A stretch of DNA of 53,123 nt from Bacteroidales bacterium (GTDB lineage Bacteria > Bacteroidota > Bacteroidia > Bacteroidales > Marinilabiliaceae), in assembly GCA_024401295.1 (NCBI GenBank), contig JAKSLG010000018.1:1-53123 (forward strand). Reading direction: 5' to 3'. Below are positions 1-33,088 of this stretch, piece after piece. The position numbers and the translations under genes were made by a program. The notes beneath the pieces were generated by a model. That model made no database searches. It saw only the letters and a program-made list of their open reading frames with translations, and was not told where the DNA came from. Each line of letters starts with the position of its first letter. The stretch's first letter is position 1.

Positions 1-747
1 GGTGCAGATGCTCCGGAAAAGGCTGGTTTTTACTACGCATGGGGCGAGACAGAAACCAAAGAAAACTACAACTGGAGCACATACAAGTGGTGTAAAGGTT
101 CGGATCATACGCAGACAAAATACGTTCCTCAGTCGTATTCATCTTATGGCTATGAAGGCTTCTATGATGACAAGGTGACTCTCGAAAAGGCCGACGACGT
201 GGCCTCACAGACATGGGGTGGCAGTTGGGTAGTCCCAACACTCACCCAGCAGGAGGAACTCCGCGACGAATGCTACTGGGTATGGACAAATACCTATAAT
301 AGAGTAAGCGTAAACGGTTACATCGTCTATAAGGCTAAGAAAGTCAGTGACAAAGGAGAAAAGGTAACTTCAATAAGCACTCCTTCACCTGATTATGACG
401 TTGCTACGGATGCGCATATTTTTCTCCCTGCTGCGGGCTACCGTTTGGACACGAATCTCGATCGTGTGGGCGACCAAGGACTCTACTGGTCGTGTTTGCT
501 CAGTGCGAGTAACTCCAGCCGCGCGTGCCGCTTTGACTTTGGCTCGGGCCACGTGGCTTGGGGCAGCGACGGCCTCCGCTATCTCGGGTTCTCTGTGCGC
601 CCTGTGTGCACGGTTGAAAAGACCCCAACCGCCATCGACTCTATCAACACCGACAATGCCGGCAAGGTAACCAAAACCATCGAAAACGGCCAAATCATCA
701 TCATCCACAACAACAAGAAATACGACCTCTCAGGTCGCGAATTGTAA
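1..747 (+). CDS. Fib_succ_major-type surface protein, 3' part (5' end outside window)
   Basis: The reading frame is open from the first base, so the start lies upstream; the GTG at 175 is internal. The visible 248 residues form a Fibrobacter-succinogenes-major-like domain (motifs YAWGET, WGGSW, FLPAAGYR, GFSVRPVC), a fold related to C-type lectin/FGE domains. They are followed by a tail ending in NKKYDLSGREL. The gene at 31955 carries the same domain, nearly identical in the stretch before FLPAAGYR but strongly different at 481-582. The tail recurs at the ends of both BspA-like proteins in this window. Probably secreted and surface exposed, though the signal peptide is not visible. A palindrome and a strong terminator follow the stop. 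The family assignment is firm; ligand and role are unknown. Confidence 0.8.
   Translation, partial: GADAPEKAGFYYAWGETETKENYNWSTYKWCKGSDHTQTKYVPQSYSSYGYEGFYDDKVTLEKADDVASQTWGGSWVVPTLTQQEELRDECYWVWTNTYNRVSVNGYIVYKAKKVSDKGEKVTSISTPSPDYDVATDAHIFLPAAGYRLDTNLDRVGDQGLYWSCLLSASNSSRACRFDFGSGHVAWGSDGLRYLGFSVRPVCTVEKTPTAIDSINTDNAGKVTKTIENGQIIIIHNNKKYDLSGREL
481..582 (+). other. Hypervariable block of the Fib_succ_major domain (candidate DGR variable region)
   Basis: Codon by codon against 32951-33052, most third bases are identical while many first and second bases differ (ctc/tac, aac/ttc, cgc/aac, tgc/tac, gac/tac, ggc/tac). The flanks show the reverse pattern: identical residues with changed third bases. 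This fits adenine-directed replacement of AAC-type codons, but no template repeat or reverse transcriptase is in the window. Inference only. Confidence 0.4.
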
Positions 748-754
748 TTCTCTC

Positions 755-783
755 GTAGAGACGTGGCATGCCGCGTCTCTAAC
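755..783. repeat. GTAGAGACG palindrome
   Basis: The sequence GTAGAGACG, core TGGCATGCCG, then CGTCTCT forms a near-perfect palindrome just after the stop codon. It has the same arms as the palindromes at 31082-31264 and 31844-31917, so it is a member of a small dispersed family. Confidence 0.6.
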
Positions 784-793
784 AGAAACATAA

Positions 794-826
794 AGAGACG
801 TTGCCCATCAGCAGCGTCTCTTTTTT
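794..826 (+). terminator. Rho-independent terminator
   Basis: An 11-bp stem (AGAGACGTTGC with GCAGCGTCTCT, one wobble pair), loop CCATCA and a run of six T. It ends the surface-protein transcript. Its arms resemble the GTAGAGACG family and may derive from it. Confidence 0.75.
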
Positions 827-929
827 GTCATTCGGCAACCTTCAAAAATATTCCCTTACAGCAAACTCAAATTGTTCGATGAATATAATGTTGATCTGAA
901 GAGGTAAAAAGTACAAAAAGAAGATAGAT

Positions 930-963
930 ACGCTCAGAGGTTGTTGTCTTCTGGGCGTTTTTT
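930..963 (+). terminator. Second terminator with no gene in front of it
   Basis: An 11-bp stem (ACGCTCAGAGG with CTTCTGGGCGT), loop TTGTTGT and a T run. It lies about 100 bases after the previous terminator with no open frame between. It may be a backup terminator or the 3' end of a small RNA; no promoter box is visible between 827 and 929. Confidence 0.55.
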
Positions 964-1027
964 GATTGCTGATGGCACAAAAACTCTGTCATACAACATA
1001 ATAAGGAACATCGTATCAAAAAAACGA

Positions 1028-1035
1028 TATATTTG
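1028..1035 (+). promoter_or_regulatory. -7 promoter box TATATTTG
   Basis: It matches the Bacteroidetes -7 consensus TAnnTTTG and lies 80 bases before the ATG of the OmpA-domain gene. No convincing -33 TTG is seen at the usual spacing. Confidence 0.5.
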
Positions 1036-1115
1036 TGCATTGCAAACATCGGGAAAAGGTCCATGAGCAATAGACAGATTGCAATGCTCCTTTGTTCGAA
1101 CTAAAACATTGAATT

Positions 1116-2192
1116 ATGGCAGACGAAAAAGGCAAAATCCGCGTACACGGAAAGGCACAGAATCGAACAGTCTTAGGCATCGTCAATGCATATCTGACAA
1201 TGCATCCTCAAACAACAGCCGACGAATTGCGCAAGGCGTTTCCATGTACTGTTGCAAAAAAGTATGAGAAGAATGACAATGACAGCTATGGACTCTTCCG
1301 CGAAATTGTGACTGTCGATGGCAAGCGACTCTGGAAAGATACCGAAAAGGAGGCTGTCAGCGACCTTAACCATTTTGAACAGGCCGACGAGACGATTCAT
1401 ACCGCCGACGGCAAGGAACTGGCGATGGTGTCAACTTGGGTCGAGAGCGACTACAAGGCCATGATTGAGTGGGCGAAGCAGTATGGCATTGAGGTAGCCT
1501 CGTTCGAGAAGGCTGAAGCGCTCAAGAAGGGCAGTTATCGTTTTGAATATCTCGACGGCTATGTTGCGCCGCTGATGGCGGCCGCTGCGGGTGCTGTGGC
1601 GGAAGCCGAAGCCCAGGCAGATGATGGCGAAGAGAAGAAAAAAGAGTGCAAATGCAAGTGCAAGAAATGGTGGATTATCCTGCTCATCATCTTGCTGATA
1701 CTTCTGTTGCTTCTGTTGTGGTGGCTGTTCTGCGGCAAGAAGTGCTGCTGCAAGTGCGGTTGCAATAAGGATGCCGTTGCTGTTGTTGATTCTGCCTCGC
1801 TTGTCGAGCAGGCCAAAGCTGTTCAGGACAGCCTTGTTGTTGAGGCTGTGAAGAATATCGAGAAGATTGAGAAGAAATTCAATACGGCAAAATTCTTCAA
1901 GGGCAAGGCTGACCTGTCGGACGACACGAAGGCTGTCCTTCAGGATCTTGAGTCGTTGCTCAAGGAGAATTCAAATCTCAAGCTGAAGCTCATTGGTCAT
2001 ACGAGCAGCGAAGGCAACGAGACGTATAATCAGAAGCTTTCCGAAGACCGTGCGAAGGCCGCTGTCGATTTCCTCGTATCGCGTGGCATCGATGCCAGCC
2101 GCCTCATGTTTGAAGGCAAAGGCAGTTCAGAGCCGGTGAGTGACAATCCTGAAGAGAACCGACGTACGGAGTTCGTCGTGATTGAGGAGTAG
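1116..2192 (+). CDS. OmpA-domain protein with a cysteine-flanked central membrane anchor
   Basis: A 358-residue protein with no signal peptide. Residues 1 to about 170 are a soluble N-terminal domain I do not recognise. Residues about 185-207 are one membrane span, almost all Ile/Leu with Trp pairs at both ends. It is bracketed by basic cysteine clusters: ECKCKCKK before, CGKKCCCKCGC after. Residues about 250-358 are an OmpA/MotB peptidoglycan-binding domain (FNTAKFFKGKADLS, LIGHTSSEGNETYNQ, RGIDASR). The layout implies an inner-membrane protein with the N-domain in the cytoplasm and the OmpA domain reaching the cell wall, as in MotB, rather than an outer-membrane barrel. A promoter box lies 80 bases upstream and a terminator directly follows. 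No partner genes adjoin it. The cysteines could hold metal or form disulfides; that is a guess. Confidence 0.8.
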   Translation: MADEKGKIRVHGKAQNRTVLGIVNAYLTMHPQTTADELRKAFPCTVAKKYEKNDNDSYGLFREIVTVDGKRLWKDTEKEAVSDLNHFEQADETIHTADGKELAMVSTWVESDYKAMIEWAKQYGIEVASFEKAEALKKGSYRFEYLDGYVAPLMAAAAGAVAEAEAQADDGEEKKKECKCKCKKWWIILLIILLILLLLLLWWLFCGKKCCCKCGCNKDAVAVVDSASLVEQAKAVQDSLVVEAVKNIEKIEKKFNTAKFFKGKADLSDDTKAVLQDLESLLKENSNLKLKLIGHTSSEGNETYNQKLSEDRAKAAVDFLVSRGIDASRLMFEGKGSSEPVSDNPEENRRTEFVVIEE

Positions 2193-2218
2193 GGGAGAAG
2201 AATCAGACAAATAAAGGT

Positions 2219-2257
2219 GCATCATCCGAATGATTTTTTCGGGTGATGCTTTTTTTT
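2219..2257 (+). terminator. Rho-independent terminator
   Basis: A 12-bp stem (GCATCATCCGAA with TTCGGGTGATGC), loop of seven bases and a T run. It overlaps the stop codon of the convergent histidine kinase gene at 2256. Confidence 0.85.
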
Positions 2258-3386
2258 AGATTTTTATTCTGATTGTTGTGCCTTCGCCGATGGCGGTATC
2301 TGCCACGAAAATCTTGCCTTTGTGGTATTCGCAGATGATACGTCGGGCAAGTGCGAGTCCGATGCCCCATCCGCGTTGCTTGGTTGTGAATCCGGCATCG
2401 AAGATGCGGCGTGCTGTTGCGCGTGTCATGCCCTTGCCCTTGTCGGTCACGTCGATGATGGCTTTTGTGCCATCATGTGTCTGGTTGATGACGATGTCGC
2501 CTCGTCCGTTCATTGCGTCGGCAGCATTGCGGCAAAGATTCTCTATGGCCCATCCGAGGAGGACGGGATTGTGTCGGACTGGTGTCTGATTGTCAGACAG
2601 GTTGAGTTGTATATTGATGCTTTGCGGCATTCGTGAACGGAGATAGCTGACGATTGATTCGAGTGTCTGTCCGATATTCTGGTCGACCATATCTGGCGAA
2701 GATCCGATTTTTGAGAAACGGTCTGCAACATGCTTCAGCCGTTCGGTGTCGCGTTGTATTTCAGTTGCGACAGTCTGTGGCTCGACGTCGCCGCTTGCGA
2801 GAAGGTCGGTCCATCCGTTGAGCGCGGTTATTGGCGTTCCGAGCTGATGTGCTGTTTCGCGTGCTAGTCCTATCCAGACCTTGTCCTGTTCGCGCTGTTT
2901 TGCCCGGCTGAACACGAGATATGCGAAGATGATGAAGAGAGCGGCGAGAGCGATGGCCACGGCAGGGAAGAGCGACAGACGCCTGATGACCGATGATTCG
3001 GCATAATAGATATGCTGAATGTTGCTCTGCCCAATATTGATGTCGAACATGTGTCCGTCTTTCTTCATCTCCTCCAATGCGGCCTCGACATCATCAACAT
3101 TGCGTGCAGAGATAACGGCATCGAGCGAGTCGGTCACAATGACCGGAATTGATGTATTGCCTTGGATTATGTTGAAGAGGAAATCGATAATTTCGCTGTC
3201 GTCGCGTTCATCTTGCGAAATAAGTTTCGTTGCCTCGGCCCATTGTTCCATTTTGTCACGTTCCTCCTTTTCGACGTTCGAGACGATGACGCTTGAAAAC
3301 CATAGGACAAATATGCAAATTGCGCATGCAAAAGCCATCAAAGCTAATAAGCTGAACTGCTGATATTTCTGCGATTTGTGATTCAT
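2256..3386 (-). CDS. Orphan sensor histidine kinase
   Basis: A 376-residue membrane histidine kinase. Membrane spans lie at about 15-36 and 135-158 and enclose a short periplasmic sensor of roughly 100 residues. There is no HAMP or PAS domain. The HisKA region holds the phospho-acceptor His180 in ARETAHQLGTPI, the form typical of Bacteroidetes kinases. The ATPase domain has an N box (NLCRNAADAM, about 282), G1 (DKGKGM, about 317) and G2 (GWGIGLAL, about 342), so all catalytic motifs are present. No response regulator gene adjoins it; the neighbours are an OmpA-domain gene (convergent) and uxuA (divergent). It may sense hexuronates for uxuAB, but nothing in the sequence proves it. The ATG start is followed directly by the first hydrophobic span. 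Confidence 0.88.
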   Translation of the reverse strand: MNHKSQKYQQFSLLALMAFACAICIFVLWFSSVIVSNVEKEERDKMEQWAEATKLISQDERDDSEIIDFLFNIIQGNTSIPVIVTDSLDAVISARNVDDVEAALEEMKKDGHMFDINIGQSNIQHIYYAESSVIRRLSLFPAVAIALAALFIIFAYLVFSRAKQREQDKVWIGLARETAHQLGTPITALNGWTDLLASGDVEPQTVATEIQRDTERLKHVADRFSKIGSSPDMVDQNIGQTLESIVSYLRSRMPQSINIQLNLSDNQTPVRHNPVLLGWAIENLCRNAADAMNGRGDIVINQTHDGTKAIIDVTDKGKGMTRATARRIFDAGFTTKQRGWGIGLALARRIICEYHKGKIFVADTAIGEGTTIRIKI

Positions 3387-3397
3387 AGCAAAAAATA

Positions 3398-3408
3398 TTT
3401 GTTACAAA
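3398..3408. promoter_or_regulatory. Short palindrome TTTGTTACAAA between kinase and uxuA
   Basis: An 11-base inverted repeat in the divergent spacer. The half TTTGTTAC recurs at 3433-3440 just before the uxuA -7 box. It could be a regulator site; chance is not excluded in AT-rich DNA. Confidence 0.25.
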
Positions 3409-3437
3409 GCGGTACTATAGATAACATGTTGTTTTGT

Positions 3438-3445
3438 TACTTTTG
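3438..3445 (+). promoter_or_regulatory. -7 promoter box TACTTTTG for uxuAB
   Basis: It matches TAnnTTTG and lies 25 bases before the uxuA ATG, giving a short leader. Confidence 0.45.
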
Positions 3446-3470
3446 ACCCAAAATTAATGATTTTATTAAT

Positions 3471-4742
3471 ATGGAAAGAACTTGGCGCTGGTTTGGTAAG
3501 AAAGATAAGATCACACTTGCCCAACTTAAGCAAATTGGCGTAGAGGGCATTGTTACCGCTCTCCACGATGTACCTCTGGGTCAGGTATGGACTCAGGAGA
3601 AGATTCATGAGCTGAAAGCATATATCGAGAGCTATGGCATGAAATGGAGTGTTGTTGAGTCGCTCCCTGTTGTTGAAACTATCAAATATGCTGGTCCTGA
3701 CCGCGACGAACAGATAGAAGTTTACAAGGAGAGCCTGCGCAACCTCGGCAAAGAGGGAGTGAAGTGCATCTGCTACAACTTCATGCCTGTGCTCGACTGG
3801 GCGCGTACCGACCTTTCGCACGAGAATCCAAATGGTGCAAACAACCTCTACATGGACTGGGGACAGTTCGCATATTTTGACATCTATATCCTTCAGCGTC
3901 CTGCTGCACGTGCAGACTGGGCTGCCTTCTCGAAGGAGCACAAATGGGGTCGCGACCTTGTGGCTGAGGCCGACAAGATAAAGGAGACAGCCACTCCAGA
4001 ATTCGACCATGCAATGGTTGAAAACATCATCATCAAGACTCAGGGCTTTGTCTCGGGCAACTTCAGCGAGGGCGATTCTGCTCCAGTGCAGAAGTTCCGC
4101 GATCTGCTCAAGCTCTATGACGGCATCAACAAGGAACAGCTCCAGCAGAACATGAAATACTGGCTCGAGGCTATCATGCCTATCTGTGAGGAATATGACA
4201 TCAATATGTGCGTACATCCGGATGATCCACCATATCCTGTGTTCGGTCTGCCACGCATCATCGGTCGCACCGATGATATCCAGTGGATGCTCGATGCTGT
4301 GCCAAACAAGCATAACGGCTTGACATTCTGCGCCGGTTCGTTCTCGGCTGGCGAGCACAACGACTGTGTTGCCATGGCAAAGCAGTTTGCTGACCGCACA
4401 CACTTCGTTCATCTCCGTTCGTGCCACATCTTCCCTAACGGAAACTTCACGGAAGCAAGTCACCTTGGTGGCCGCGGCGATCTCATCGAACTCTGCCGCA
4501 TCTTTGAACAGGCTGAGAAAGACGGCAAGTGCAACTCAGGCCGCCGACTCCCTATGCGCGTCGATCACGGCATGACCTTCACCGACGAGCCAGGCGGTGT
4601 CTTCGACGAGAGCAATCACGGACACAATGCCGGCTACACACTCCTCGGACGAATGTTTGCCATGGGACAGATTCAGGGCATCATGGCCACTGTCGACCGC
4701 GAGTTAGGCATCGAGTACAAACAGCCAGGCTTCTACGATTAA
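3471..4742 (+). CDS. uxuA: D-mannonate dehydratase UxuA
   Basis: A cytoplasmic Mn/Fe-dependent enzyme that dehydrates D-mannonate to 2-keto-3-deoxygluconate (EC 4.2.1.8) in glucuronate breakdown. The 423-residue product begins with the family hallmark MERTWRWFGKKD. It also has VTALHDVP, the metal/substrate segments CVHPDDPPYPVFGLPR, FCAGSF and FVHLRS, and a C-terminal RVDHG motif. It is slightly longer than the E. coli enzyme (about 394), which is usual for Bacteroidetes. Its stop is 13 bases before the uxuB start, so the two are an operon that turns fructuronate into KDG. KDG kinase and aldolase and a hexuronate porter are not in this window. It is transcribed away from an orphan histidine kinase. 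Confidence 0.95.
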   Translation: MERTWRWFGKKDKITLAQLKQIGVEGIVTALHDVPLGQVWTQEKIHELKAYIESYGMKWSVVESLPVVETIKYAGPDRDEQIEVYKESLRNLGKEGVKCICYNFMPVLDWARTDLSHENPNGANNLYMDWGQFAYFDIYILQRPAARADWAAFSKEHKWGRDLVAEADKIKETATPEFDHAMVENIIIKTQGFVSGNFSEGDSAPVQKFRDLLKLYDGINKEQLQQNMKYWLEAIMPICEEYDINMCVHPDDPPYPVFGLPRIIGRTDDIQWMLDAVPNKHNGLTFCAGSFSAGEHNDCVAMAKQFADRTHFVHLRSCHIFPNGNFTEASHLGGRGDLIELCRIFEQAEKDGKCNSGRRLPMRVDHGMTFTDEPGGVFDESNHGHNAGYTLLGRMFAMGQIQGIMATVDRELGIEYKQPGFYD

Positions 4743-4755
4743 TAGTATATTGACA

Positions 4756-6342: not shown

Positions 6343-6366
6343 GAAACAATAAATACGAGCAAAGCA

Positions 6367-6411: not shown

Positions 6412-9400
6412 TCAGATAGTCATGATGTCATAGCCGAGCTCGGCCATCTGTTTGCGCAGCTCGACGCCGTCGCTCTTGACAACGCTGATGCCAAGCGAGC
6501 GGCTTGGGATCTGCTTGTAGATGTCTGCCGAGACAGCCGAGACGATATCGGCTTGAATGATCTTGTATTCAAGAAGGTCGTGGAGCACCGAACCAGTCTG
6601 TGTGATGTTCTGTTTTTCGATTTCCGACACTTTGTCGGTGCGATAAAGGACGAGACCGTTTTCGGCACGCACGACGGTGAAAAGGATGTCGCCATCGAAG
6701 CATGGACAAGCGAATGCCAGTTTGGCATCAGCACGCTGGAATTCCTTATATTGCTCCTTTTCGAGAATTTCCTTGAGGGCCACTTTTGTCACCATTCCGT
6801 CTTCATAGGCCATGAGGAGATAAGCGTTGCGTTCATGTTCGTGAATGGCAATTGTCAGCTCGGCATCGTCGGCATAGCATTCGTTGACGATCTGATATTT
6901 CGAATCGGGCAGGAATTGCAGATATGCAATAGGTTCTTCGAAGCCTTCGTCCCAGTTGAACAGCACATTGTTGCGCAACTGACCTGTGGCAATCTTGGCC
7001 AACTCCCGGTTTTCGTCCTTGCTCTGTCGTTCTGGCTCAGATGCCGGTTCCGGTTCCGGTTCTGGCTCTGCTGTTGCTGGAATCTCGTCAACAGGCTGTG
7101 GCTCAGCGGATTCAGCGACCGTTTCTTCTTCAACATCTGCCGGCTTCGTTTCGAGGTTATTGATAATCTCGTCGAAATTGAACTCTGTGTTTGATGCCGG
7201 CATTGAGGCAGCATTTTTGAGTCGCTGCACGCGGAATTGTCTGAGATAGTCACCATTGAGCGGCTCGCACGAGCTGCCCTGTCGCTCATAAACCTTCGTG
7301 TGGAGAGTGATGATGGCGTTGAAGCATGGTTTGACTTTGACAATATAGACTACGCAGCCATCTTCGTTTTCGTCGAAGCTTGTCTCGATGAGCGAATTGG
7401 CAATGAGACCGAGATATTGCTTGACTTGGTTATGGAAGAAGATGTCGTATTTGTCCTGGCTATACTGAAACTGTCGATATGCAAGGTCGTTTCCGATGCC
7501 GATAGCCGTTCCTTCGTTGTTGACGCCGATGTACAGCGTGCCGCCCTGCGTATTGAGGAATGCGCATACTACCTTGAGAATTGTCTGCACCTGCTGTGCA
7601 AGGTCTGGGCGCATGTTGTTGTCTGGCGGATAGACCATGCTGGTCTTGAACTCGACCTGCTTGTTCTCTTTGCCATAGTTCTTGTGTGCCGACTTGCGTT
7701 GTTTGAGGTTGAGATGCTCAAAAATCTTCGTGTCGATTTCGGCGCGTGATTTCACGCTTGCAAAGTCGCCCAAGAGGTTGTAGGCCAGGACAAGCGAAGC
7801 CAGTTCCTTGAGTCCGAGTTCGCTGTCGTTGGCAATCGTGTTCCACAGTTCGGCATTATGCTCCGGATGGTTGCGTCGGCTGATGATGAGCAGCTGCATG
7901 AAGCGGAAATGAAGCTGGCTTTCGCGCATGAACATCTCAGGTCCGGCCTTCTCGATTTCGCGCAATTTCTCTTCATCGACTTTTTCGTTGATTGAAAATT
8001 CGTGGAGCATCTTCATCAGCTCCATGCGCCAATGATAGTATTGCATCGACTGCTTGTCGTCGGTCAGCATTGCAATGATGCGGGCCATGCCAAGGTAGCT
8101 GTATGCACGCATCGTGTTTTCGACGGCGGCCTGTCGGTCCATCAGAAGCATGAGCTCGTGTACGTACGAGTTGTCGAGTTGTGCATCGGCCTGCAGCACC
8201 TCCTTGTCGTTGCTCTGTCCGTCGTGGATGGCGTCAACGGCATAGTTCTGCATCAGGCGATAGAAGGCATAGCCTTCGTCCCAGTTCGGGCGTGCGATAT
8301 GCTTGATGAATGTCGTGCTGACATTGCTTCGGCGTGTGTCGTCATCTTGTTCAACTTCAACGAGGATATAATCGCCAGCCTTCACCTCGCTATCCACGAC
8401 GATGTTGCTTGGAATTGTCGCGTTGAGCGGATAGCCTTCAGCCGAAACGCCGTTGAGACCGTTGCCAAGCCTGCTCTTGACGAGCATCTGGAATGTGTTG
8501 CCATACGAAACTTCGTCGTGTATATATTCGCGGATGAGCTTGGTCATCGTGAAGCGACATTCGCCATCAGGCTTGATCGAAATGACCTTGGCAGGCAAGA
8601 CGAGCGGATTGCCATCGTCGTCAACGAAGACCTTGTCGATGATGCGCGGATTCCATTTGACAATCTCCGAGAGAACGATTGTTCCTTCGCCCTTGACGTT
8701 GTCCATGACAATCTTGCAGTGGAAAGTAGGCTCCGACGTGTCGTCGAGCTGACCATCGATGATGATATCGACTTCGTCGCCTTGTTCTGGCAGCATCTTT
8801 ACGAATTCCGGCGTCGTATTCTGCTGCACCTTCTCGCTGTTGAGCGCAACCTCAATCTCGTTCCACAATTTCTGATATGACGTAAGGTCATCTTCGTTGA
8901 GCTTGATCTTCTCGTTCAGGCCGCCGTTGACCATGATCTGCTGCTGATGCCATGGCAAAAGATCTTCGGGCAGAACAGGCTCGCTGTCATCCTCGTTTAT
9001 CGGCAAAACCTGAATGCCGCTGTCGCCAATGCGAAGCTGCGATTTGTTGCCCTTGTATGTCTTCATCACGATGTTGTCGTCGAACGAATCATCGTCCTGA
9101 TCTGTGATGGCAGCAAGCTTTTCAACAAGAACCTCGACCTTGCTGATGTCTTCCCACGAAAAACGCATGATTGTCGCGCCGGAACCCATCAGGCAACGAA
9201 ACGAACGCTCGAGAAGCGTTCTTGGCGATGTCGGCGAGACAAACGACGCATAGCGAAACAGCATTGCCCTGTTTAGTTGCATGTCGCATGGCAAAACGCT
9301 CTGCTGTTCCTCATTGAGCGTCTGGACAAGACACTGCTCCATGGCCAATGCCTTGATAATCTGATGTATAGATTCGCTCGATGCTGCCGACGCATAATCT

Positions 9401-10458
9401 GCATTGGCCTTCTCGCTGCGTATATACATCTCGATGAGTTTGATAAAAGCACTGCGGAAAGGCTCCTGCTTCCAGTATTCAAGCGGATTGAGCTCGATGA
9501 TGCGAAAAATATCGCCCATCTTGCATTTCATCAGTTCCGGCTTGAGCGAAAACAACGTAACCAGAACACCAAGCTTATGCTGAGGCTGATATATATAACC
9601 CGACATCTCGAGCTTGCTCAGCAAATCGGCAATATACTGTTCATGACTCTCCTGCCCGACAATCTGTATAGCTTCCGTAAACCGGCTCGACACATCGATG
9701 CTCGCGCTCAGTCGTTCCTGAAGCATCTCGCGCTCCATTCCCGATGTCTGTTTCAGAATATCGCTCTTCTCGAGCAACCATAATATGTCCGACTGCATCT
9801 CCTCAATCATCTCCGACTGATCGTCCCGACCCGAAATCTCATGCTGAAGCCATTCTGTGCATACCTCGTCAAACGTCTGCCCGCTTATCGTTCCAAAAAG
9901 CAACTCAACAAATTCACCCTTCTTCCATTCCGTCTCACCCTGGCGACCCTTCAGCGCCTCTGTCATCTTATGCGGAAGCGTACTGCTCGCCCTCCGTATC
10001 GAATTATTCTCGCCCGTTTCAACCTTCAGGCTCAGCCGTGTTCCACTTTGATCCGTCACCTTGCATTTGACGTGCTGATAGGCATATAGCCTCGTATGCG
10101 AATCATCCAGATGAAATATGAATCCATAGGTATCCGACAACAGATACGTCCGGTTTTCGCCGCCGTGGGGTATTATCTTTGTAACGACAAAGTCATAGAC
10201 CGACCCTATCTTGTAAAACTGTTTTATGTATGGCGAGAAATCCTGAACCAGCGTCAGATCGCCCGTGTTTTCGTTATAGTCTTTCACCAGACACCTCAGC
10301 GTCGCGGGTATATCTTCGTTAAGCTGAAACCGCAGCAGACTTATCGGATATTGCCTTCCATCGTCAAGCGTCACAATGTAGCATTTTCGGTTGTTTATAA
10401 CCTTCGTCGTTCCATCGACGGGCAGCGTCAGCACTTGCCCTTTCCTAAATTTGTTCAT
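6412..10458 (-). CDS. Very large AlbA_2-domain (Schlafen-like) protein of unknown role
   Basis: About 1348 residues. I chose the ATG at 10458; the frame opens at a TTG three codons upstream. The N-terminal 150 residues (GQVLTLPVDGT, YIVTLDDGRQYPIS, LSDTYGFIFHLDD) look like consecutive small beta-barrels of OB/S1 type. A long mostly helical middle part follows, with another beta-rich segment around 560-720. Residues about 935-1085 are an AlbA_2 putative nucleic-acid-binding domain (QVEFKTSMVYPP, ICxFLNTQGGTLYIGV-like GGTLYIGVNNEG). An acidic Pro/Glu linker with repeated EP pairs lies at about 1120-1146, then a beta-rich tail. There is no signal peptide or membrane span, so it is cytoplasmic. 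No partner genes: it sits alone between uxuAB and a BspA gene. RNA binding or a translation or stress role is a guess; an antiviral role is possible because AlbA_2 occurs in defence proteins, but nothing here proves it. Confidence 0.75.
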   Translation of the reverse strand: MNKFRKGQVLTLPVDGTTKVINNRKCYIVTLDDGRQYPISLLRFQLNEDIPATLRCLVKDYNENTGDLTLVQDFSPYIKQFYKIGSVYDFVVTKIIPHGGENRTYLLSDTYGFIFHLDDSHTRLYAYQHVKCKVTDQSGTRLSLKVETGENNSIRRASSTLPHKMTEALKGRQGETEWKKGEFVELLFGTISGQTFDEVCTEWLQHEISGRDDQSEMIEEMQSDILWLLEKSDILKQTSGMEREMLQERLSASIDVSSRFTEAIQIVGQESHEQYIADLLSKLEMSGYIYQPQHKLGVLVTLFSLKPELMKCKMGDIFRIIELNPLEYWKQEPFRSAFIKLIEMYIRSEKANADYASAASSESIHQIIKALAMEQCLVQTLNEEQQSVLPCDMQLNRAMLFRYASFVSPTSPRTLLERSFRCLMGSGATIMRFSWEDISKVEVLVEKLAAITDQDDDSFDDNIVMKTYKGNKSQLRIGDSGIQVLPINEDDSEPVLPEDLLPWHQQQIMVNGGLNEKIKLNEDDLTSYQKLWNEIEVALNSEKVQQNTTPEFVKMLPEQGDEVDIIIDGQLDDTSEPTFHCKIVMDNVKGEGTIVLSEIVKWNPRIIDKVFVDDDGNPLVLPAKVISIKPDGECRFTMTKLIREYIHDEVSYGNTFQMLVKSRLGNGLNGVSAEGYPLNATIPSNIVVDSEVKAGDYILVEVEQDDDTRRSNVSTTFIKHIARPNWDEGYAFYRLMQNYAVDAIHDGQSNDKEVLQADAQLDNSYVHELMLLMDRQAAVENTMRAYSYLGMARIIAMLTDDKQSMQYYHWRMELMKMLHEFSINEKVDEEKLREIEKAGPEMFMRESQLHFRFMQLLIISRRNHPEHNAELWNTIANDSELGLKELASLVLAYNLLGDFASVKSRAEIDTKIFEHLNLKQRKSAHKNYGKENKQVEFKTSMVYPPDNNMRPDLAQQVQTILKVVCAFLNTQGGTLYIGVNNEGTAIGIGNDLAYRQFQYSQDKYDIFFHNQVKQYLGLIANSLIETSFDENEDGCVVYIVKVKPCFNAIITLHTKVYERQGSSCEPLNGDYLRQFRVQRLKNAASMPASNTEFNFDEIINNLETKPADVEEETVAESAEPQPVDEIPATAEPEPEPEPASEPERQSKDENRELAKIATGQLRNNVLFNWDEGFEEPIAYLQFLPDSKYQIVNECYADDAELTIAIHEHERNAYLLMAYEDGMVTKVALKEILEKEQYKEFQRADAKLAFACPCFDGDILFTVVRAENGLVLYRTDKVSEIEKQNITQTGSVLHDLLEYKIIQADIVSAVSADIYKQIPSRSLGISVVKSDGVELRKQMAELGYDIMTI

Positions 10459-10568
10459 AATTATCAATGAGTTTTATTCGTATTTGCGAATATAACGAAA
10501 AAATACGTGGAAATATTTTCTCTGTCAAATAAAAAGAATTGTTGAAAACAATCGTATTGGTCTTCCGC

Positions 10569-27127: not shown

Positions 27128-27159
27128 AAAAAAACGCCACGGCTCCAGCAACCATGACG
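27128..27159 (-). terminator. Regulated terminator of the thiG leader
   Basis: On the reverse strand a 10-bp stem (CGTCATGGTT with AGCCGTGGCG, several G-U pairs), loop GCTGG and seven T. It stands between the TPP aptamer and thiG. Its left arm region CTGCGTCA (27155-27162) is exactly complementary to TGACGCAG in the aptamer 3' side (27202-27209), giving an alternative antiterminator. Confidence 0.75.
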
Positions 27160-27193
27160 CAGCGCATTGTATTACAGCAATTTATCTTTGCCA

Positions 27194-27270
27194 AACAATC
27201 CCTGCGTCAGCATTATCTGCATCAGGTTCTTAGGGTATATTCTCAGCCTGTGGGCACCCCCTTGTCTTTC
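27194..27270 (-). promoter_or_regulatory. TPP riboswitch (THI element) for thiGC
   Basis: On the reverse strand the aptamer core is clear: GGGGGTGCCC, GGCTGAGA, ATACCC, GAACCTGATGCAGATAATGC and TGACGCAGGGA, the conserved thi-box. It begins a few bases after the promoter. With TPP bound, the 3' side of the aptamer is held and the downstream terminator forms; without TPP the antiterminator pairing is possible. Confidence 0.95.
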
Positions 27271-27275
27271 GCAAG

Positions 27276-27283
27276 CAAAGATA
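27276..27283 (-). promoter_or_regulatory. -7 promoter box TATCTTTG (reverse strand)
   Basis: It matches TAnnTTTG and lies just ahead of the TPP aptamer, so transcription should start almost at the first aptamer base. The same box in the same relation precedes the thiH riboswitch. Confidence 0.65.
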
Positions 27284-27402
27284 GTGAGTTTTTGAATATT
27301 TTATACCAAACTGACCAAAAACATCGATTTTGGACATGCACAACGAACGGAACCGTGCGTCTGAATCGCTTGCCGGATTAATATCTTTTAGCACAAATAT
27401 CC

Positions 27403-27432
27403 TTTGGCTCAAATATTTATTGTCTATATTTG
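27403..27432 (+). promoter_or_regulatory. Promoter TTTG-N18-TATATTTG
   Basis: A -33 TTTG at 27403-27406 and a -7 TATATTTG at 27425-27432, 17 bases before the chosen ATG of the TonB-dependent receptor. It supports the start at 27450 rather than the longer frame from 27330. Confidence 0.6.
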
Positions 27433-27449
27433 CCACAACAAACAACGCG

Positions 27450-29777
27450 ATGAAAAATATCCAAATCCTAATTTTCGCCTTTTTGCTTTGTGTGTGCGAT
27501 GTGGCTGCACAAAAGATATATGGCAAGATCACCGACGCTCAGACTGGCGAATCGCTCGTTGGTGCAACGATATATGTTGCATCACAGTCGAAAGGCACAA
27601 CCACAGACATCGATGGAAAATATTCTCTTCCATTGCCAAATGGAAGTTATGTTGTTTCATTCTCTTTCATGGGCTATGAAACCGAAACCATCACTGTAAA
27701 TGTCAAGGGCAACACCTCTTTAAATGTGAGACTTAACTCTTCATCGAGAAATATCGATGAGATTGTTGTTACGTCGCAGAACAAGCAGGAGCAGCTCTCA
27801 AAACCGGAGATGGGCGTCGAGAAACTGCAGTCGAAGACAATCAAGAGCGTTCCTGTTCTGCTTGGCGAGACCGATGTCATCAAGGTGATGCAGCTCATGC
27901 CAGGAGTACAGGCCGCAAGCGAGGGAAGCACAGGCTTCAGCGTGCGAGGCGGCAATCCCGATCAGAACCTTGTTCTGCTCGATGGTTCAACCATCTACAA
28001 TGCAGGCCACTTCATGGGCTTCTTCTCGGTTTTCAACAATGATGCCGTCAACGATGTCAAACTCTATAAGGGCGATATACCAGCAAGTTATGGTGGCCGA
28101 CTTTCATCATTGCTTGAGGTTAACATGAAAGATGGCGACAAGCAAAACTATCATCTTAACGGCGGTGTCGGACTCATTTCGTCGCGACTGACCATCGACG
28201 GCCCGATAGTGAAAAACCGAACGTCGTTTCTTGCGAGTGCACGACGCACATATTTTGATATCTTCCTGCCGTTTGCGACAAACGAATCGGCCCGCGAGAG
28301 CAGCATATATTTCTACGACCTCAACGCGAGAATCTCGCATAAGATAAACGACAACAACCATATTTTTGCAAGCGGTTATCTCGGTCGCGACCTCTTCGAC
28401 TATCCTATTGCAGGAATGGCATTCGGCAATAAGTCGGCTTCGCTTCGATGGAGCCATATCTTCAATCAGAAGAACTATCTCAACGTCACGTTCCATGCCG
28501 TCAACAGCGACTACGATCTGACCATGGATTTCGATGCGGCATCGAAAGCTTCTCTCACGTCTGTGATCAAGGACCTCTCGTTGCGTGCCGATTTCAGCTC
28601 GAATGTGGGAATGACGCATGCTCTGGTCTATGGTTTTCAGGTGACACGTCATGGTTTTCAACCAGGATCGGCTCGCGGTGGCGGCAGCATGGCACTCTTT
28701 GGCGAAATTGTCATGCCGGAAAACAAGGCGATAGAGACATCGGTCTTCATCGGCAATACCGAGACGATCGGCACGTCGCTGACGCTTCGCTATGGTCTGC
28801 GTCTCTCAACGTTCCACAACTACGGACCAACAACTCTATATAAGTACGACAGCGAATATAATCTTTCCGAAGAGATTGAAAAAGGCAGTGGTTTCTACCA
28901 TAACAACTTTGGCATTGAACCTCGCTTCGCATTGTCATATCTCCTGAATGAACACTCTTCAATCAAAGCTTCATATACACGTACCTATCAGTATATGCAA
29001 CAGGCAAGTGTGTCATCGTCCGGCACGCCGATGGATGTGTGGTATATGGCTTCGCCGAACGTCAAGCCACAGCTCTCTGATCAGGTCTCCATGGGCTATT
29101 TCCACAACCTTATGGAAAACCGTATCGAGCTCTCTTTTGAGACATTCTACAAGGCGATGCAGCATACCATCGACTTCAAGGATCATCCGCATGTGATGCT
29201 CAATAAGTACCTCGAAGGTCAGTTGCGTTTTGGCAGTTCGCGTTCGTATGGCATCGAGCTTATGGCCAAGGCCGATTTCGGCCGATGGAACGGATGGGTG
29301 AGCTATACGCTGTCGCGTGCCGACCGCAAGATCGACGGCATCAACAACGGCAATCGCTACCTCTCGCCTTACAATCACACACACGATGCAAGCATCGTGG
29401 CGTCATATCGCTTCAACGACCGCATAAGCGCATCGGGCAACTGGGTCTTCATCAGCGGTGCACCGACAACATTCCCTGTGGCACGTTATGAAGTCGGAGG
29501 CGAAATCGTCCCGTACTATTCGTCACGCAACGGCGACCGGATGCCAAACTATCATCGTCTCGACCTCTCGCTGACCATTCAATGCAAGAACAATCCTCGC
29601 CGCCGATGGAAAGGCGAATGGGTCTTCTCGTTCTATAATGCCTATAACCACCACAACACGTGGGCCATCCATTTTGAAAGGCAGGACGACGAGGTTGAAA
29701 ACACATACGTCATAAAAGCAAAGAGCGTATATCTCTTCCCGATAATCCCATCTGTCTCATACAATTTTAAATTCTGA
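27450..29777 (+). CDS. TonB-dependent outer-membrane receptor with carboxypeptidase-like N-domain
   Basis: 775 residues from the ATG at 27450. This start gives a signal peptide (MKNIQILIFAFLLCVCDVAA) and lies just after a good promoter. Next comes a CarboxypepD_reg-like domain (about 22-100: GKITDAQTGESLVGATIYV, FSFMGYETETI). A plug domain follows (about 130-220: MQLMPGVQAASEGSTGFSVR, NLVLLDGSTIYNAGH). The rest is an outer-membrane beta barrel of about 550 residues ending in SYNFKF, with a terminal aromatic residue. It imports a large or scarce nutrient using TonB energy. The following gene is a DUF4249 lipoprotein six bases away, a known partner arrangement distinct from SusC/SusD. The substrate is unknown; no enzymes adjoin it. 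Confidence 0.93.
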   Translation: MKNIQILIFAFLLCVCDVAAQKIYGKITDAQTGESLVGATIYVASQSKGTTTDIDGKYSLPLPNGSYVVSFSFMGYETETITVNVKGNTSLNVRLNSSSRNIDEIVVTSQNKQEQLSKPEMGVEKLQSKTIKSVPVLLGETDVIKVMQLMPGVQAASEGSTGFSVRGGNPDQNLVLLDGSTIYNAGHFMGFFSVFNNDAVNDVKLYKGDIPASYGGRLSSLLEVNMKDGDKQNYHLNGGVGLISSRLTIDGPIVKNRTSFLASARRTYFDIFLPFATNESARESSIYFYDLNARISHKINDNNHIFASGYLGRDLFDYPIAGMAFGNKSASLRWSHIFNQKNYLNVTFHAVNSDYDLTMDFDAASKASLTSVIKDLSLRADFSSNVGMTHALVYGFQVTRHGFQPGSARGGGSMALFGEIVMPENKAIETSVFIGNTETIGTSLTLRYGLRLSTFHNYGPTTLYKYDSEYNLSEEIEKGSGFYHNNFGIEPRFALSYLLNEHSSIKASYTRTYQYMQQASVSSSGTPMDVWYMASPNVKPQLSDQVSMGYFHNLMENRIELSFETFYKAMQHTIDFKDHPHVMLNKYLEGQLRFGSSRSYGIELMAKADFGRWNGWVSYTLSRADRKIDGINNGNRYLSPYNHTHDASIVASYRFNDRISASGNWVFISGAPTTFPVARYEVGGEIVPYYSSRNGDRMPNYHRLDLSLTIQCKNNPRRRWKGEWVFSFYNAYNHHNTWAIHFERQDDEVENTYVIKAKSVYLFPIIPSVSYNFKF

Positions 29778-29783
29778 TTTACA

Positions 29784-30626
29784 ATGAAATATATCGCCTT
29801 ATTTATATCGTCTCTTTTAATCCTGTCGGCATGTTCTGAAGATATCGATCTGACACTCAGCACGACACATCCGTTCTTTGTTGTCGATGGTCATATCTGC
29901 GACGAGGTGTCGCCATACAACTTTGTCAGACTGACAATGTCGTCGGACTATTTCCAGAATACGGAATCGCCGGCCGTCCGTGGCGCGTCGGTCGTGATAA
30001 ACGATGGCGAACAGGACATTGTCTTCGAAGAGCAGGAGCCAGGCTATTACATGGCACCGGCCTTTTTTGCCGGCATGCACGGGAAGACATATCATCTGAT
30101 AATCTCAAACGTTGATATTGATGGCGATGGGGTTAATGAAAGCTACACTGCCGAAAGTGTCATGCCCCCTACATATGGCATCGACTCTGTGAAATGTACC
30201 TACGACAACTTCTTGGAAATCTACAAGATAGGCATGTATGCCCATGAGGATACTTCGACAGAGAACTTCTATATGTTTGGCTATTCATATAACGATTCGC
30301 TCGTCTGCGACTCATACCTCGACTATGCCATAACCGACGATTCGTATTTCAGCAGCGACTACTGCTGGGGCGCAACTATCAGCACTCTGAGAGAGGATTT
30401 CCTCAAGAGCGGCGTCATCAACGTTGGCGATACTATCACCGTTCATGCCCTTTCTATCAACGAAGATCTTTTCAAATACATAGCCGCTGTTGATGACATC
30501 GACAGTGGCTCGAATCCGATGTTCAGCAGCACGCCGGCCAATGCCGTCGGCAACATCAGCAATGGCGCTCTCGGTTTTTTCACGGCCATGGCTGTCGTTC
30601 ATGTTCAGTGTTTTGTAGAAAAATAA
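29784..30626 (+). CDS. DUF4249 lipoprotein, partner of the TonB receptor
   Basis: 280 residues with a lipoprotein signal (IALFISSLLILSACSED): lipobox Cys at about 17, followed by Ser-Glu-Asp, a sequence that in Bacteroidetes favours surface export. The body is beta-rich (FFVVDGHICDEVSPYNFVRL, VVINDGEQDIVFEEQEPGYY, YHLIISNVDIDGDG), as in the DUF4249 family whose members sit next to TonB receptors. It is likely a surface-exposed accessory that helps capture the receptor's cargo. It shares the operon with the receptor. No T-rich terminator directly follows; a repeat fragment begins 30 bases downstream. Confidence 0.85.
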   Translation: MKYIALFISSLLILSACSEDIDLTLSTTHPFFVVDGHICDEVSPYNFVRLTMSSDYFQNTESPAVRGASVVINDGEQDIVFEEQEPGYYMAPAFFAGMHGKTYHLIISNVDIDGDGVNESYTAESVMPPTYGIDSVKCTYDNFLEIYKIGMYAHEDTSTENFYMFGYSYNDSLVCDSYLDYAITDDSYFSSDYCWGATISTLREDFLKSGVINVGDTITVHALSINEDLFKYIAAVDDIDSGSNPMFSSTPANAVGNISNGALGFFTAMAVVHVQCFVEK

Positions 30627-30656
30627 TGCTGCCTTCCTTCGTGATCTTCCAGTTGC

Positions 30657-30830
30657 AATATTGTTTGGCATAGGCTTCGGCTTTGCATGTTGTATCTTCT
30701 TACTTGGTTTTGTCTTCATTAGCTTACGCTCAGCATCGCAGTCATTTTTAGCTCTGGAAATGCCGGCGACGAGCTCTCTTTTGCTTCGTTTTCTCTGAGC
30801 GGCACAGAGAAAATGAAGAGGAAACTAAGC
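30657..30830. repeat. Dispersed intergenic repeat, fragment D
   Basis: A rearranged fragment. A degenerate start module (GGCATAGGCTTCGGC) and CATTAGCTTACGCTCAGC lie in forward orientation. The segment GCCGGCGACGAGCTCTC to TCTGAGCGGCACAGAG follows in reverse orientation relative to copy A. Mosaic structure, no gene. Confidence 0.55.
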
Positions 30831-30953
30831 ATGCAAGGACAGAGCCTATTTAAAAAAAAGCAACATTTTAGACATTGTTTCGTAAAAATGAACAACAAGT
30901 GCATTCCATAAAAGAAACATGTTGAAATATTTGCAAGAAACAAATAAAATATT

Positions 30954-30985
<32 letters not shown>

Positions 30986-31010
30986 GGCCTTAGGCCTATA
31001 CGATAAAATA

Positions 31011-31062
31011 ACGACGAGGGCATACCCATGCGCGATGAGCGCATCGGGTGTGCCCTCGTTGT
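31011..31062. terminator. Long hairpin, possible bidirectional terminator
   Basis: About 23 paired bases (ACGACGAGGGCATACCC then ATGCGC on the left, GCGCAT then GGGTGTGCCCTCGTTGT on the right, one bulge). The flank TTATTTTAT on the reverse side and TTTCT on the forward side give only weak T tails. It may end the receptor/DUF4249 transcript. Confidence 0.45.
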
Positions 31063-31081
31063 TTCTGCGTGGTCCAATGCC

Positions 31082-31161
31082 GTAGAGACGTCGCATGCGG
31101 CGTCTTTACAAAACGTGCAGAATGTCCAATCGCCCGTAGAGACGGTGTGTACACCGTCTTA
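31082..31161. repeat. Two GTAGAGACG palindromes
   Basis: 31082-31109 (GTAGAGACG, core TCGCATGCGG, CGTCTTTAC) and 31136-31161 (AGACGGTGT-GT-ACACCGTCT perfect). They have the same outer arms with different cores, spaced about 54 bases start to start, and lie directly ahead of the 75-bp element at 31190. Confidence 0.7.
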
Positions 31162-31189
31162 TGCGAAATGTGGTTGAAACCAATCGGCC

Positions 31190-31264
31190 GTAGAGACGTT
31201 TGATCAAACGTCTTGAAAAATAAAGACACAATGTGGTTGAAGACGTTTTATAAAACGTCTCTAC
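31190..31264. mobile_element. 75-bp palindromic MITE-like element, copy 1
   Basis: The ends are inverted (GTAGAGACGTTT ... AAACGTCTCTAC). Each half contains a perfect 20-base palindrome: AGACGTTTGATCAAACGTCT at 31193-31212 and AGACGTTTTATAAAACGTCT at 31241-31260. Copy 2 at 31844-31917 is identical except for one missing A. It has no coding capacity. It could be a miniature transposable or REP-like element mobilised in trans; target-site duplications are not evident. Confidence 0.65.
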
Positions 31265-31311
31265 GCAAATAAAACGACAATTAACAAGAATACAAACAAT
31301 TAAAAACAGAA

Positions 31312-31830
31312 ATGCCAATGAGAAAGAAAATCTTCTCTCTGCTAACGATGCTGACAGTCAGCCTCGCAGCCATGGCCGATGATGTTCCGGGCGTCACCGT
31401 CGAATACCTCGACGCAGGCAGCGCCTCCTACGTTCAGGCCATAAGCGCCATAGGGCGCATCGAGTTCAAGGATGGCAATGCCACCATCGTCTTCAAGGAT
31501 GCTGAGGCCGGCACCGAAGACCTCGGCTCCATCTCGGCCATCCGTCGCATCTCCTTCGGTGCCGTCAGCGAAAGCGACATCACCGAGGACGACGACACAC
31601 CGACCGCCATCACCACAGAACGCAAGGTCAGCGTTAGCGCCTATCCAAACCCTACGGCCGACCATCTCCACATCAGCGGTTTGGCAGACGGACAGCAGGT
31701 GCGCCTCTTCACGTCCGACGGCCGTCTGACCCTTGTCGGAACATCGGCCGACATCGACCTCACTGGCATGCCCAACGGCATCTACCTCCTGCAGGTCGGC
31801 AAGGATGTAATCAAGGTCATCAAGAAATAA
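31312..31830 (+). CDS. Small secreted protein with type IX secretion sorting domain
   Basis: 172 residues from the first ATG; a second ATG two codons on (31318) would start the signal peptide directly (MRKKIFSLLTMLTVSLAAMA). A region of about 75 residues follows (VEYLDAGSASYVQAISAIGR, EDLGSISAIRRISF) with the same IGRIEF/ISAIRRISF-type strands twice. The C-terminal 70 residues are a type A T9SS sorting domain (VSAYPNPTADHLHIS, GQQVRLFTSDGRL, LTGMPNGIYLLQVG, IKVIKK). It should cross the outer membrane by T9SS and be attached or released. Function is unknown; the mature part is tiny. It is bracketed by the two MITE-like elements and precedes the coiled-coil/Fib_succ_major gene. Confidence 0.82.
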   Translation: MPMRKKIFSLLTMLTVSLAAMADDVPGVTVEYLDAGSASYVQAISAIGRIEFKDGNATIVFKDAEAGTEDLGSISAIRRISFGAVSESDITEDDDTPTAITTERKVSVSAYPNPTADHLHISGLADGQQVRLFTSDGRLTLVGTSADIDLTGMPNGIYLLQVGKDVIKVIKK

Positions 31831-31843
31831 AAGACCAATTGGT

Positions 31844-31917
31844 GTAGAGACGTTTGATCAAACGTCTTGAAAAATAAGACACAATGTGGTTGAAGACGTT
31901 TTATAAAACGTCTCTAC
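31844..31917. mobile_element. 74-bp palindromic MITE-like element, copy 2
   Basis: A direct repeat of 31190-31264 (one base shorter) with the same terminal inverted repeats and the same two perfect palindromes. It lies between the T9SS cargo gene and the next surface gene. The two copies flank the cargo gene like the ends of a composite cassette. Confidence 0.65.
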
Positions 31918-31954
31918 GCAACAAAATGTAAAAACAATAAAAAACGAAAATACA

Positions 31955-33088
31955 ATGAAAAGAATTTTCATTTCAGCCCTCGCACTCTTAGGTATGGGTG
32001 TCATGGCTAACGCACAGGAAAAGGTGACTATCCACAACGGCTCAGAGAGCTATGTGACAAACGTAGAATACATAACATTTGATGCTACTGATGCTGATGA
32101 TGCTGTTTCGGTTTCAGCACTTCAGACTGAAATCACAACGTTGACGGGAGAAAAGACAACGCTCGAGGGTCAGGTGTCGACGTTGACCAGTGAGAAAGCT
32201 GAACTTGCAACTGCAAAGACCACTCTCGAAGGTCAGGTATCGACATTGACAAGCGAGAAGGCTGAACTGGCAACTGCAAAGACGACCCTCGAAGGTCAGG
32301 TATCGACATTGACAAGCGAGAAGGCTGAACTTGCAACTGCTAAGACAACACTCGAGGGTCAGGTATCAACCTTGACAAGCGAGAAGACAGCTTTAGAGAC
32401 AAAAGTAAAGTCGATGGAATATGCACTTGGTGAAAGAGCAAAGGTTCACGAGTATGTTGATTTGGGTCTTACAAGTGGCACCCTCTGGGCGACAATGAAT
32501 GTAGGTGCATCAAGTCCTGAAGACTATGGCGACTATTTTGCATGGGGCGAGACTGCGCCTAAAAGTGACTATAGCTGGAGTACATATTTCGACACCAATG
32601 ATGGAGGAAAAACTTTCTCCAAGTACAAAAATATTGGAGGTAAAAAAGAACTCGACGATGCCGACGATGTAGCCGTTCAGGCATGGGGCGGAGCGTGGAA
32701 GATGCCGACCAAGACTCAGCAGGACGAGCTCTGTAACGAGTGTTACTGGGTCTGGACTTCTTCTTACAACGGCAAGAGTGTTAATGGCTATATAGTTTAC
32801 AAGGCAAAGAGCGACAGCGACAAGGGAAAGAAGATCTATAGCGGCAGTACTCCATCAGCCGACTATGATGTTGCTACGGATGCCCATATTTTCCTGCCCG
32901 CTGCGGGCTATCGCGACAGTGGCAACCTCGGCTACGTAGGTGGCCGCGGCTACTTTGGGTCGCGTTCGCTCAACACGAACTTCTCCAACAACGCGTACGA
33001 GTTGTACTTCTACTCGAGCGGCGTGCTCACGAGCGGCAGCAACCGAAGCTACGGTCTGTCGGTTCGTCCCGTCTGCCCAGGTAAGTAA
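31955..33088 (+). CDS. Secreted coiled-coil protein with C-terminal Fib_succ_major domain
   Basis: 377 residues. A signal peptide (MKRIFISALALLGMGVMANA) is followed by a short beta segment (VTNVEYITFDA). A coiled coil at about 50-160 is made of three exact 21-residue repeats plus a partial fourth (unit TTLEGQVSTLTSEKAELATA plus Lys), i.e. three heptads each. The last 225 residues are a Fib_succ_major domain (YVDLGLTSGTLWATMNVGA, YFAWGETAPKSDYSW, WGGAWKMPT, FLPAAGYR, GLSVRPVC). The stalk would hold the lectin-like head away from the cell. The head is very close to that of the gene at the window start except in a hypervariable block. Unlike that gene it ends four residues after RPVC, without the shared tail. 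A terminator follows. Confidence 0.85.
   Translation: MKRIFISALALLGMGVMANAQEKVTIHNGSESYVTNVEYITFDATDADDAVSVSALQTEITTLTGEKTTLEGQVSTLTSEKAELATAKTTLEGQVSTLTSEKAELATAKTTLEGQVSTLTSEKAELATAKTTLEGQVSTLTSEKTALETKVKSMEYALGERAKVHEYVDLGLTSGTLWATMNVGASSPEDYGDYFAWGETAPKSDYSWSTYFDTNDGGKTFSKYKNIGGKKELDDADDVAVQAWGGAWKMPTKTQQDELCNECYWVWTSSYNGKSVNGYIVYKAKSDSDKGKKIYSGSTPSADYDVATDAHIFLPAAGYRDSGNLGYVGGRGYFGSRSLNTNFSNNAYELYFYSSGVLTSGSNRSYGLSVRPVCPGK
32156..32389 (+). repeat. 63-bp in-frame tandem repeat (coiled-coil stalk)
   Basis: Three full units at 32156-32218, 32219-32281 and 32282-32344, and a partial one to 32389. Each encodes 21 residues, exactly three heptads, so gain or loss of units changes stalk length without a frameshift or loss of heptad phase. 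Confidence 0.9.
32951..33052 (+). other. Hypervariable block of the Fib_succ_major domain (candidate DGR variable region)
   Basis: The counterpart of 481-582. The block is rich in NNC codons (tac, aac, ttc, tcc, agc), and the substitutions against the other gene fall mainly on codon positions 1 and 2. It is located, as in known DGR targets, at the extreme 3' end of the gene. No template repeat is found in the window. Confidence 0.4.

Follow-up and report, generated by a model that had tools for sequence, protein, structure and literature searches.

Probable variable repeats of a diversity-generating retroelement in two putative lectin-like genes of a Marinilabiliaceae bacterium

How can two related genes keep the third bases of their codons while exchanging the residues that these codons encode? 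The question is raised by a 53,123-nucleotide stretch of DNA from a member of the Bacteroidales (family Marinilabiliaceae; assembly GCA_024401295.1, contig JAKSLG010000018.1), here called the window, which is contig C10 of an assembly (G000) of 2.3 Mb that is 74.97% complete. Two plus-strand genes are concerned, both of secreted-looking proteins. VP1 (positions 1..747) is the 3′ part of a predicted target gene, open at its 5′ end with its start lost at the contig end, and VP2 (31955..33088) is by open reading frame and translation a complete target gene of 377 aa. Their variable repeats, VR1 (421..606) and VR2 (32891..33073), hold the two blocks in which the codon pattern was first read by eye (481-582 and 32951-33052), and these do lie near the 3′ ends of coding sequences. 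Taken together with the rest of the genome and a comparison set of 15 genomes of the genus (congeners such as G006, G009, G012 and G013), the sequences make it highly probable, at roughly 0.94, that both blocks are variable repeats of a diversity-generating retroelement (DGR).

The codon signature itself is readily reproduced. Comparison of codons 13-43 after the motif FLPAAGYR, with the best single-codon gap, gives 30 aligned codons. Third bases are identical in 23 of these, close to the original count of about 25 of 31; residues differ in 22 and base 1 or 2 in 21, which bears out the claim that over half of the codons had changed at these positions. Upstream of the blocks the opposite pattern holds, as had also been noticed: of 129 codons, 82 have a different third base and 49 a different residue, and the third base differs in 43 of the 80 codons that specify the same residue. 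GC-biased third positions had been named as a possible source of inflation. With residues fixed and codons drawn according to usage in the window, a mean of 9.6 identical third bases was obtained and none of 20,000 draws reached 23; residue-changing codons alone show 16/22 identities against a null mean of 7.1 (p = 5e-5). Permutation of the block's own third bases gave a mean of 12.7 identities (p = 5e-5). Chance and codon bias are therefore rejected as the cause of the pattern by two nulls (p ≤ 5e-5), values that are optimistic because the block boundaries were chosen by eye.

The same signature recurs throughout the genome. With the VP2 domain as protein query, 37 stretches matched at E ≤ 10, and a gene could hold several of them; the domain of VP1 is 58% identical to that of VP2. 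Fourteen blocks were extracted by the frame FLPAAG...RPV, yielding 91 pairs; blocks at C24 and further domains on C40 and C1 were missed by the extraction pattern and lie outside this set. When third-base changes are expressed relative to changes at bases 1 and 2, the ratio is below 1 within the block in 71/91 pairs and upstream of it in 0/91, and the block ratio is lower than the upstream ratio in all 91. VR2 and two blocks on contig C11, near 3.1 kb and near 26.1 kb, have in common the frame TCGCGTTCGCTC-NNC-ACG-NNC-NNC-TCC-NNC-NNC-GCGTAC. From these three blocks a DGR-type search pattern was built, the reversed control of which gave 0 matches; bases 32960-32998 of VR2 have zero mismatches to it, the pattern itself being derived from VR2 and its sister blocks. 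About a dozen target-like blocks are spread over many contigs of this genome, not all of them proven targets.

Complete cassettes are found in congeners. The DGR-type pattern matched 9 of the 15 genus genomes, with all-AAC copies in G009 and G013 and a slightly different one in G006, and each of these three copies adjoins a reverse transcriptase (RT). In G009 the order is target gene, accessory gene of 185 aa, template and RT of 395 aa; the order in G013 is the same, and there the contig begins within the target gene. The template, next to the DGR-type RT, is about 198 bases long and carries AAC at the variable codons. Used as a query, the congener RT found matches in 6/15 genus genomes at E ≤ 0.001. 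It matches RVT_1, and its best match among solved structures is 8ub7 (E 2.1e-35), which we take to be the DGR RT of Bordetella phage BPP-1. The segment G(L/I)PIGxLTSQLF is common to both, and the (L/I)GxxxSQ segment of the G009 RT is a likeness to the phage system. Unlike that system, the one described here has several target genes and an accessory protein with no match in NCBIfam or PHROGs and, in Pfam, only MutS_I below cut-off (E = 0.053). MutS-like accessories are known for DGRs. G013 holds a second RT and a second template of the YWSSTP type (locus L172, contig G013:C10, about 2.1-4.0 kb); two template types coexist in this one genome. A target-like repeat with two stop codons, perhaps a pseudogene, was also seen in G009 (C7:53446-53628).

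Direct evidence that such a cassette has recently been at work comes from the orthologous cassettes of G009 and G013. Their templates show 0/198 differences. Between the adjacent target repeats there are 28 differences, at 27/53 template-adenine sites and 1/145 other sites, and the flanks of the repeat differ at 19/471 positions upstream and 6/900 downstream. Adenine restriction was examined more widely by counting mismatches at template adenines and at other template bases, in alignments whose scores weigh all mismatches equally. Against the G009 template, the repeats of G009 itself give 24/52 v 0/131 and 22/52 v 0/131, and those of G013 give 24/52 v 1/131 and 31/52 v 0/131. Four of the five G012 repeats (the fifth was shortened by the search pattern) were compared with the G006 template, giving 23/46 v 6/140, 27/46 v 1/140, 25/44 v 4/139 and 24/46 v 6/140. 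The second G013 template differs from its adjacent target at 25/54 adenines and 2/132 other bases, and from two G004 repeats at 27/54 v 12/129 and 28/54 v 9/132. Further repeats compared with the G009 template lie in G004 (C56, 26/50 v 22/130; C52, 27/52 v 15/131), G014 (C106, 30/52 v 35/131; C98, 30/52 v 29/131) and G008 (30/52 v 32/131). As a control, the G006 and G009 templates show no adenine excess when set against each other (7/52 v 16/128, p = 0.52). The G009 and G006 comparisons leave out the C92 repeat of G012 and those paralogues of G009 and G013 that the DGR-type pattern missed.

The blocks of the window genome fit the congener templates as well. Against the G009 template p is below 0.01 in 11/12 blocks, C1a having been left out, and the best fit is the C11 block near 3.1 kb (34/52 adenines, 5/131 other bases). 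VR1 mismatches at 33/52 adenines and 18/131 other bases, and VR2 at 27/52 and 27/131 (p = 4.4e-5); these two repeats probably stem from related, not identical, templates. A 13th block, on C15, fits the second G013 template (30/54 v 9/132). The prediction of a DGR is upheld on the matter of origin by the congener cassettes, by target differences confined to adenines, and by the fit of own-genome blocks to the template.

By analogy with known DGRs, the cassette of this genus, made up of target gene, small accessory gene, template repeat and RT, would act as follows. The RT would make cDNA from template RNA, placing random bases opposite adenines, and this cDNA would take the place of the 3′ part of target genes that have the template's 3′ end. 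AAC at the variable codons of the template would become NNC, so that residues change and third bases are kept. Targets also lie elsewhere in the genome, away from the cassette. In G009 the adjacent target and the template have all 36 3′ bases, GGGTTCTCGGTTCGCCCTGTCTGCCCTGGGGTTCAG, in common, and the adjacent target of G013 has all but one. The blocks of the window genome differ in this shared end: the first 29 bases are kept in C11 (3 kb), 24 in C34 and 23 in C36, and the first 21 already contain changes in VR1, VR2 and C11 (26 kb). We infer that the target proteins bind at the cell surface and that a cassette of its own is, or once was, present in the window species, missing through incomplete assembly or loss.

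Several observations weigh against this account or limit it. Neither the RVT_1 profile nor the congener RT (both at E ≤ 10) found an RT in the window assembly, and the accessory gene was not found there either. The DGR-type pattern gave 8 matches in it, all target repeats and none all-AAC, and a general template pattern, which is not exhaustive and also missed the template adjoining the RT of genome G084, gave 0. An empty RT search alone shows nothing, but the congener RT query did match in six genus genomes. G012, which is 91% complete and has repeats fitting the G006 template, is likewise without a detected RT, accessory gene or template. Widening the block to 43 aligned codons yields 19 third-base differences and a ratio of 1.12, which places the VR1/VR2 pair 86th of the 91 own-genome pairs ranked from the strongest. 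Block C16 has no adenine bias (26/50 v 53/130, p = 0.12), and therefore paralogues are not targets in every case; the bias is likewise weak in a paralogue of G084 (29/54 v 39/129, p = 0.0025). With 18 and 27 non-adenine mismatches, VR1 and VR2 are either old or derived from another template version. The search pattern that brought up most of the congener repeats itself demands the non-adenine frame over 39 bases, which favours their counts; the two repeats beside an RT and the G009-G013 cassette comparison are independent of the pattern. Lastly, VR1 looks frozen, hardly changed between two species.

The missing cassette bears on one further expectation. An RT and a template repeat had been predicted, and both exist in congeners; in the window assembly they were not found. 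Their absence from a complete genome had been named as a reason to reject the idea, an argument that does not apply to an assembly 75% complete. In 3/12 cases in G000 (p = 0.02) and in 17/35 over eight genomes (a hand-picked list) the target is no more than 1.5 kb from the end of its contig, and a cassette could therefore be lost in assembly. The VP2 locus was also considered as a congener cassette locus with its RT deleted. This was rejected, for only the module of partner gene and target matches, and that module occurs elsewhere too.

The history of VR1 can be followed in some detail. G009 carries a copy of the 3′ part of VP1 that is 96% identical over 767 bases, and the rest of the 19 kb fetched around this copy shows no match to the window at this level, on which ground VP1 may have moved between species. 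Across 421-606 the two copies differ at seven positions, namely 472, 579 and five in 592-606, the last sitting at the expected homing end. This leaves 2 differences in 421-591, compared with 7/390 upstream, and the block at 481-582 is equal at 101/102 bases. The G009 copy itself mismatches the G009 template at 32/52 adenines and 21/131 other bases. A VR1-type pair thus has few repeat differences, whereas the cassette repeats of G009 and G013 differ at 28 sites at similar flank divergence; for this reason it appears that neither lineage has rewritten VR1 after the two copies separated, despite the cassette in G009. A check for hypervariability had been proposed for both blocks; the first of them, the one with a copy in a second species, looks frozen instead. 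VR1 is best regarded as a retired target.

Frozen targets lead to the most serious alternative, which agrees with a DGR origin and concerns only the present state. According to it, the lineage of the window species has lost its RT and template, and the blocks are now fossils inherited unchanged. The failure to find RT, accessory gene and template in the assembly is in keeping with this, as is the near identity of VR1 between species. Short RT stretches within short open frames in G004, G005 and G013 suggest that cassettes decay in this genus, and leftover targets in core-less strains have been described for Treponema denticola (PMC4891356). Against it stand the incompleteness of the assembly, in which targets near contig ends could have lost their cassette, and the long stretches of shared 3′ end kept in C11 (near 3 kb), C34 and C36. 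Fossil targets are accordingly somewhat short of an even chance, and the odds that the DGR is active in this species at present are about even.

Two other alternatives deny the retroelement its part and fare far worse. Gene conversion or shuffling among paralogues might have made the mixture of shared and different codons: paralogues are numerous, several of them in one stretch, and most differences between VR1 and its G009 copy fall immediately 3′ of the block. Conversion, however, spreads existing variants; it would neither hold third bases while bases 1 and 2 vary nor yield 0/131 non-adenine mismatches against an all-AAC template, and it is very improbable. Ordinary positive selection on a binding loop, joined to biased codon usage, is the least credible and strongly disfavoured, for although block third positions are rich in C and G and hypervariable codons would also raise adenine counts where the template's AAC codons lie, the residue-preserving null and the one that preserves local third-base content (p ≤ 5e-5), the persistence of the non-adenine C of AAC, unexpected from residue selection, the restriction of G009-G013 differences to adenine sites and the existence of templates beside RTs all tell against it.

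The signature was also examined more widely. A VP2 search of genome contigs provided a wider set, the best 80 of 435 stretches encoding relatives (79 loci). Testable block pairs occur in 24/79 loci, 67 pairs in all; the block ratio is below 1 in 31/67 and the upstream ratio in 0/67, and the block ratio is the lower of the two in 63/67. A strict codon signature (ratio below 0.7) was found at 10 of the 24 loci with a testable pair. In a survey with the congener RT as single query (E ≤ 1e-10), 6/49 genomes have a congener-like RT, and none of these holds any of the 10 strict loci. The general template pattern had matches in 3/58 genomes, with clear templates in G013 only. G084 and four IMG/VR contigs possess an RT, a template and an adjacent target of the Fib_succ_major-like domain class, and their five template-target pairs mismatch at 24/54 v 1/129, 18/45 v 0/135, 18/41 v 2/139, 21/39 v 0/141 and 12/37 v 1/143. 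The RT relatives in the four IMG/VR contigs have 51-52% identity. RT matches were obtained in 102 phage and 248 plasmid records, all below 60% identity, and two template patterns gave 0 matches each in viral contigs.

Because all 10 strict-signature loci lie in genomes in which no congener-like RT was found, it is conceivable, if rather doubtful, that orphan targets are common in Bacteroidales, that is, Fib_succ_major-like proteins whose variation is written by DGR cassettes of a transient kind or located outside the main chromosome bin. If this were true, genomes would hold many receptor variants without an RT, written by a DGR and later frozen, and these could be transferred from one species to another as fixed binders, as VP1 may have been. 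Four loci of the wider set (L046, L053, L094 and L100) have four to six clustered target-like blocks per fetched stretch, some pairs of which show the DGR codon signature; no congener-like RT was found in their genomes.

DGR targets of this domain class have already been published, and the window system adds a further case. Fib_succ_major and DUF1566 targets appear in print (PMC4159848; PMC8934634), with 9 Fib_succ_major and 47 DUF1566 target proteins tabulated for DGRs of the human microbiome and, for another target, a template-target pair in which every substitution falls on an adenine (PMC4159848). The domain class is the same as here; the present case differs in its many dispersed target-like genes in one genome, its frozen target and the lack of a detected cassette in its own assembly. 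Treponema denticola has one template and RT serving two to seven targets per isolate, remote ones included (PMC4891356); it belongs to another phylum, and more target-like blocks were analysed here (14, not all proven). In 21 cyanobacterial genomes, 121 diversified genes include 76 remote targets (PMC7517822); these are C-type lectin paralogues, and their dispersal in the genome and diversification from a template resemble the present case, in another domain family and phylum. One survey states that it would not detect remote targets (PMC8144416), and DGR diversification of Bacteroides tip pilins is cited elsewhere (PMC12632263). Our literature searches found no title on this genus, a weak negative.

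What the present analysis adds is, first, that a codon pattern read by eye has been turned into a located system. In the sister species, cassettes whose templates are identical and whose targets have diverged document mutagenic retrohoming in Bacteroidales as it took place in nature. The results suggest that DGR-written genes can be recognised without an RT or template, by inverted codon-position change alone, which would be helpful for incomplete genomes. That two species share a frozen target suggests that what a DGR writes can end up as a fixed variant and be inherited.

The naming of the target domain calls for some care. VP1, from its translation, comprises a putative lectin-like domain and a short C-terminal tail, and VP2 a signal-like N-terminus (by eye), coiled-coil repeats and a C-terminal domain that resembles Fib_succ_major/Lcl_C by relationship. 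The Fib_succ_major label of the original prediction has no formal Pfam match behind it: PF09603 does not match VP1 at E ≤ 1, nor does it occur for VP2 among the 25 of 64 families listed, which are of coiled-coil type only, and VP1 matches Lcl_C alone, weakly and below cut-off (E = 0.064). A PF09603 search of the genome found three places, one over cut-off and none inside the window. The label holds by relationship, on account of the C15 paralogue, which has a below-cut-off match to PF09603 and also matches VP2. No solved structure among 177,635 sequences matched the target domain at E ≤ 1. Between the signal-like segment and the putative lectin-like domain of VP2, near-identical coiled-coil repeats (EKTTLEGQVSTLTS / EKAELATAKT) occupy 32120-32420.

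Just upstream of VP2 lies a plus-strand gene (31312..31830) whose 172-aa product has a type IX secretion system (T9SS) sorting domain (PF18962 Por_Secre_tail, E = 4.2e-7), perhaps a secretion or display partner. Relatives of this gene occur near target genes in congeners, with blastn matches in L173, L214, L216, L224, L235 and L237. A hairpin 3′ of the variable repeat is known for BPP-1. None of that type was seen 3′ of the VP1, VP2 and G013 target repeats (z 0.19, -1.37 and 0.87, respectively), and the VP2 stem is terminator-like. Elsewhere in the window, the minus strand at 6412-10467 holds a 1351-aa open frame, an uncertain gene call that overlaps many plus-strand open reading frames and matches Schlafen AlbA_2.

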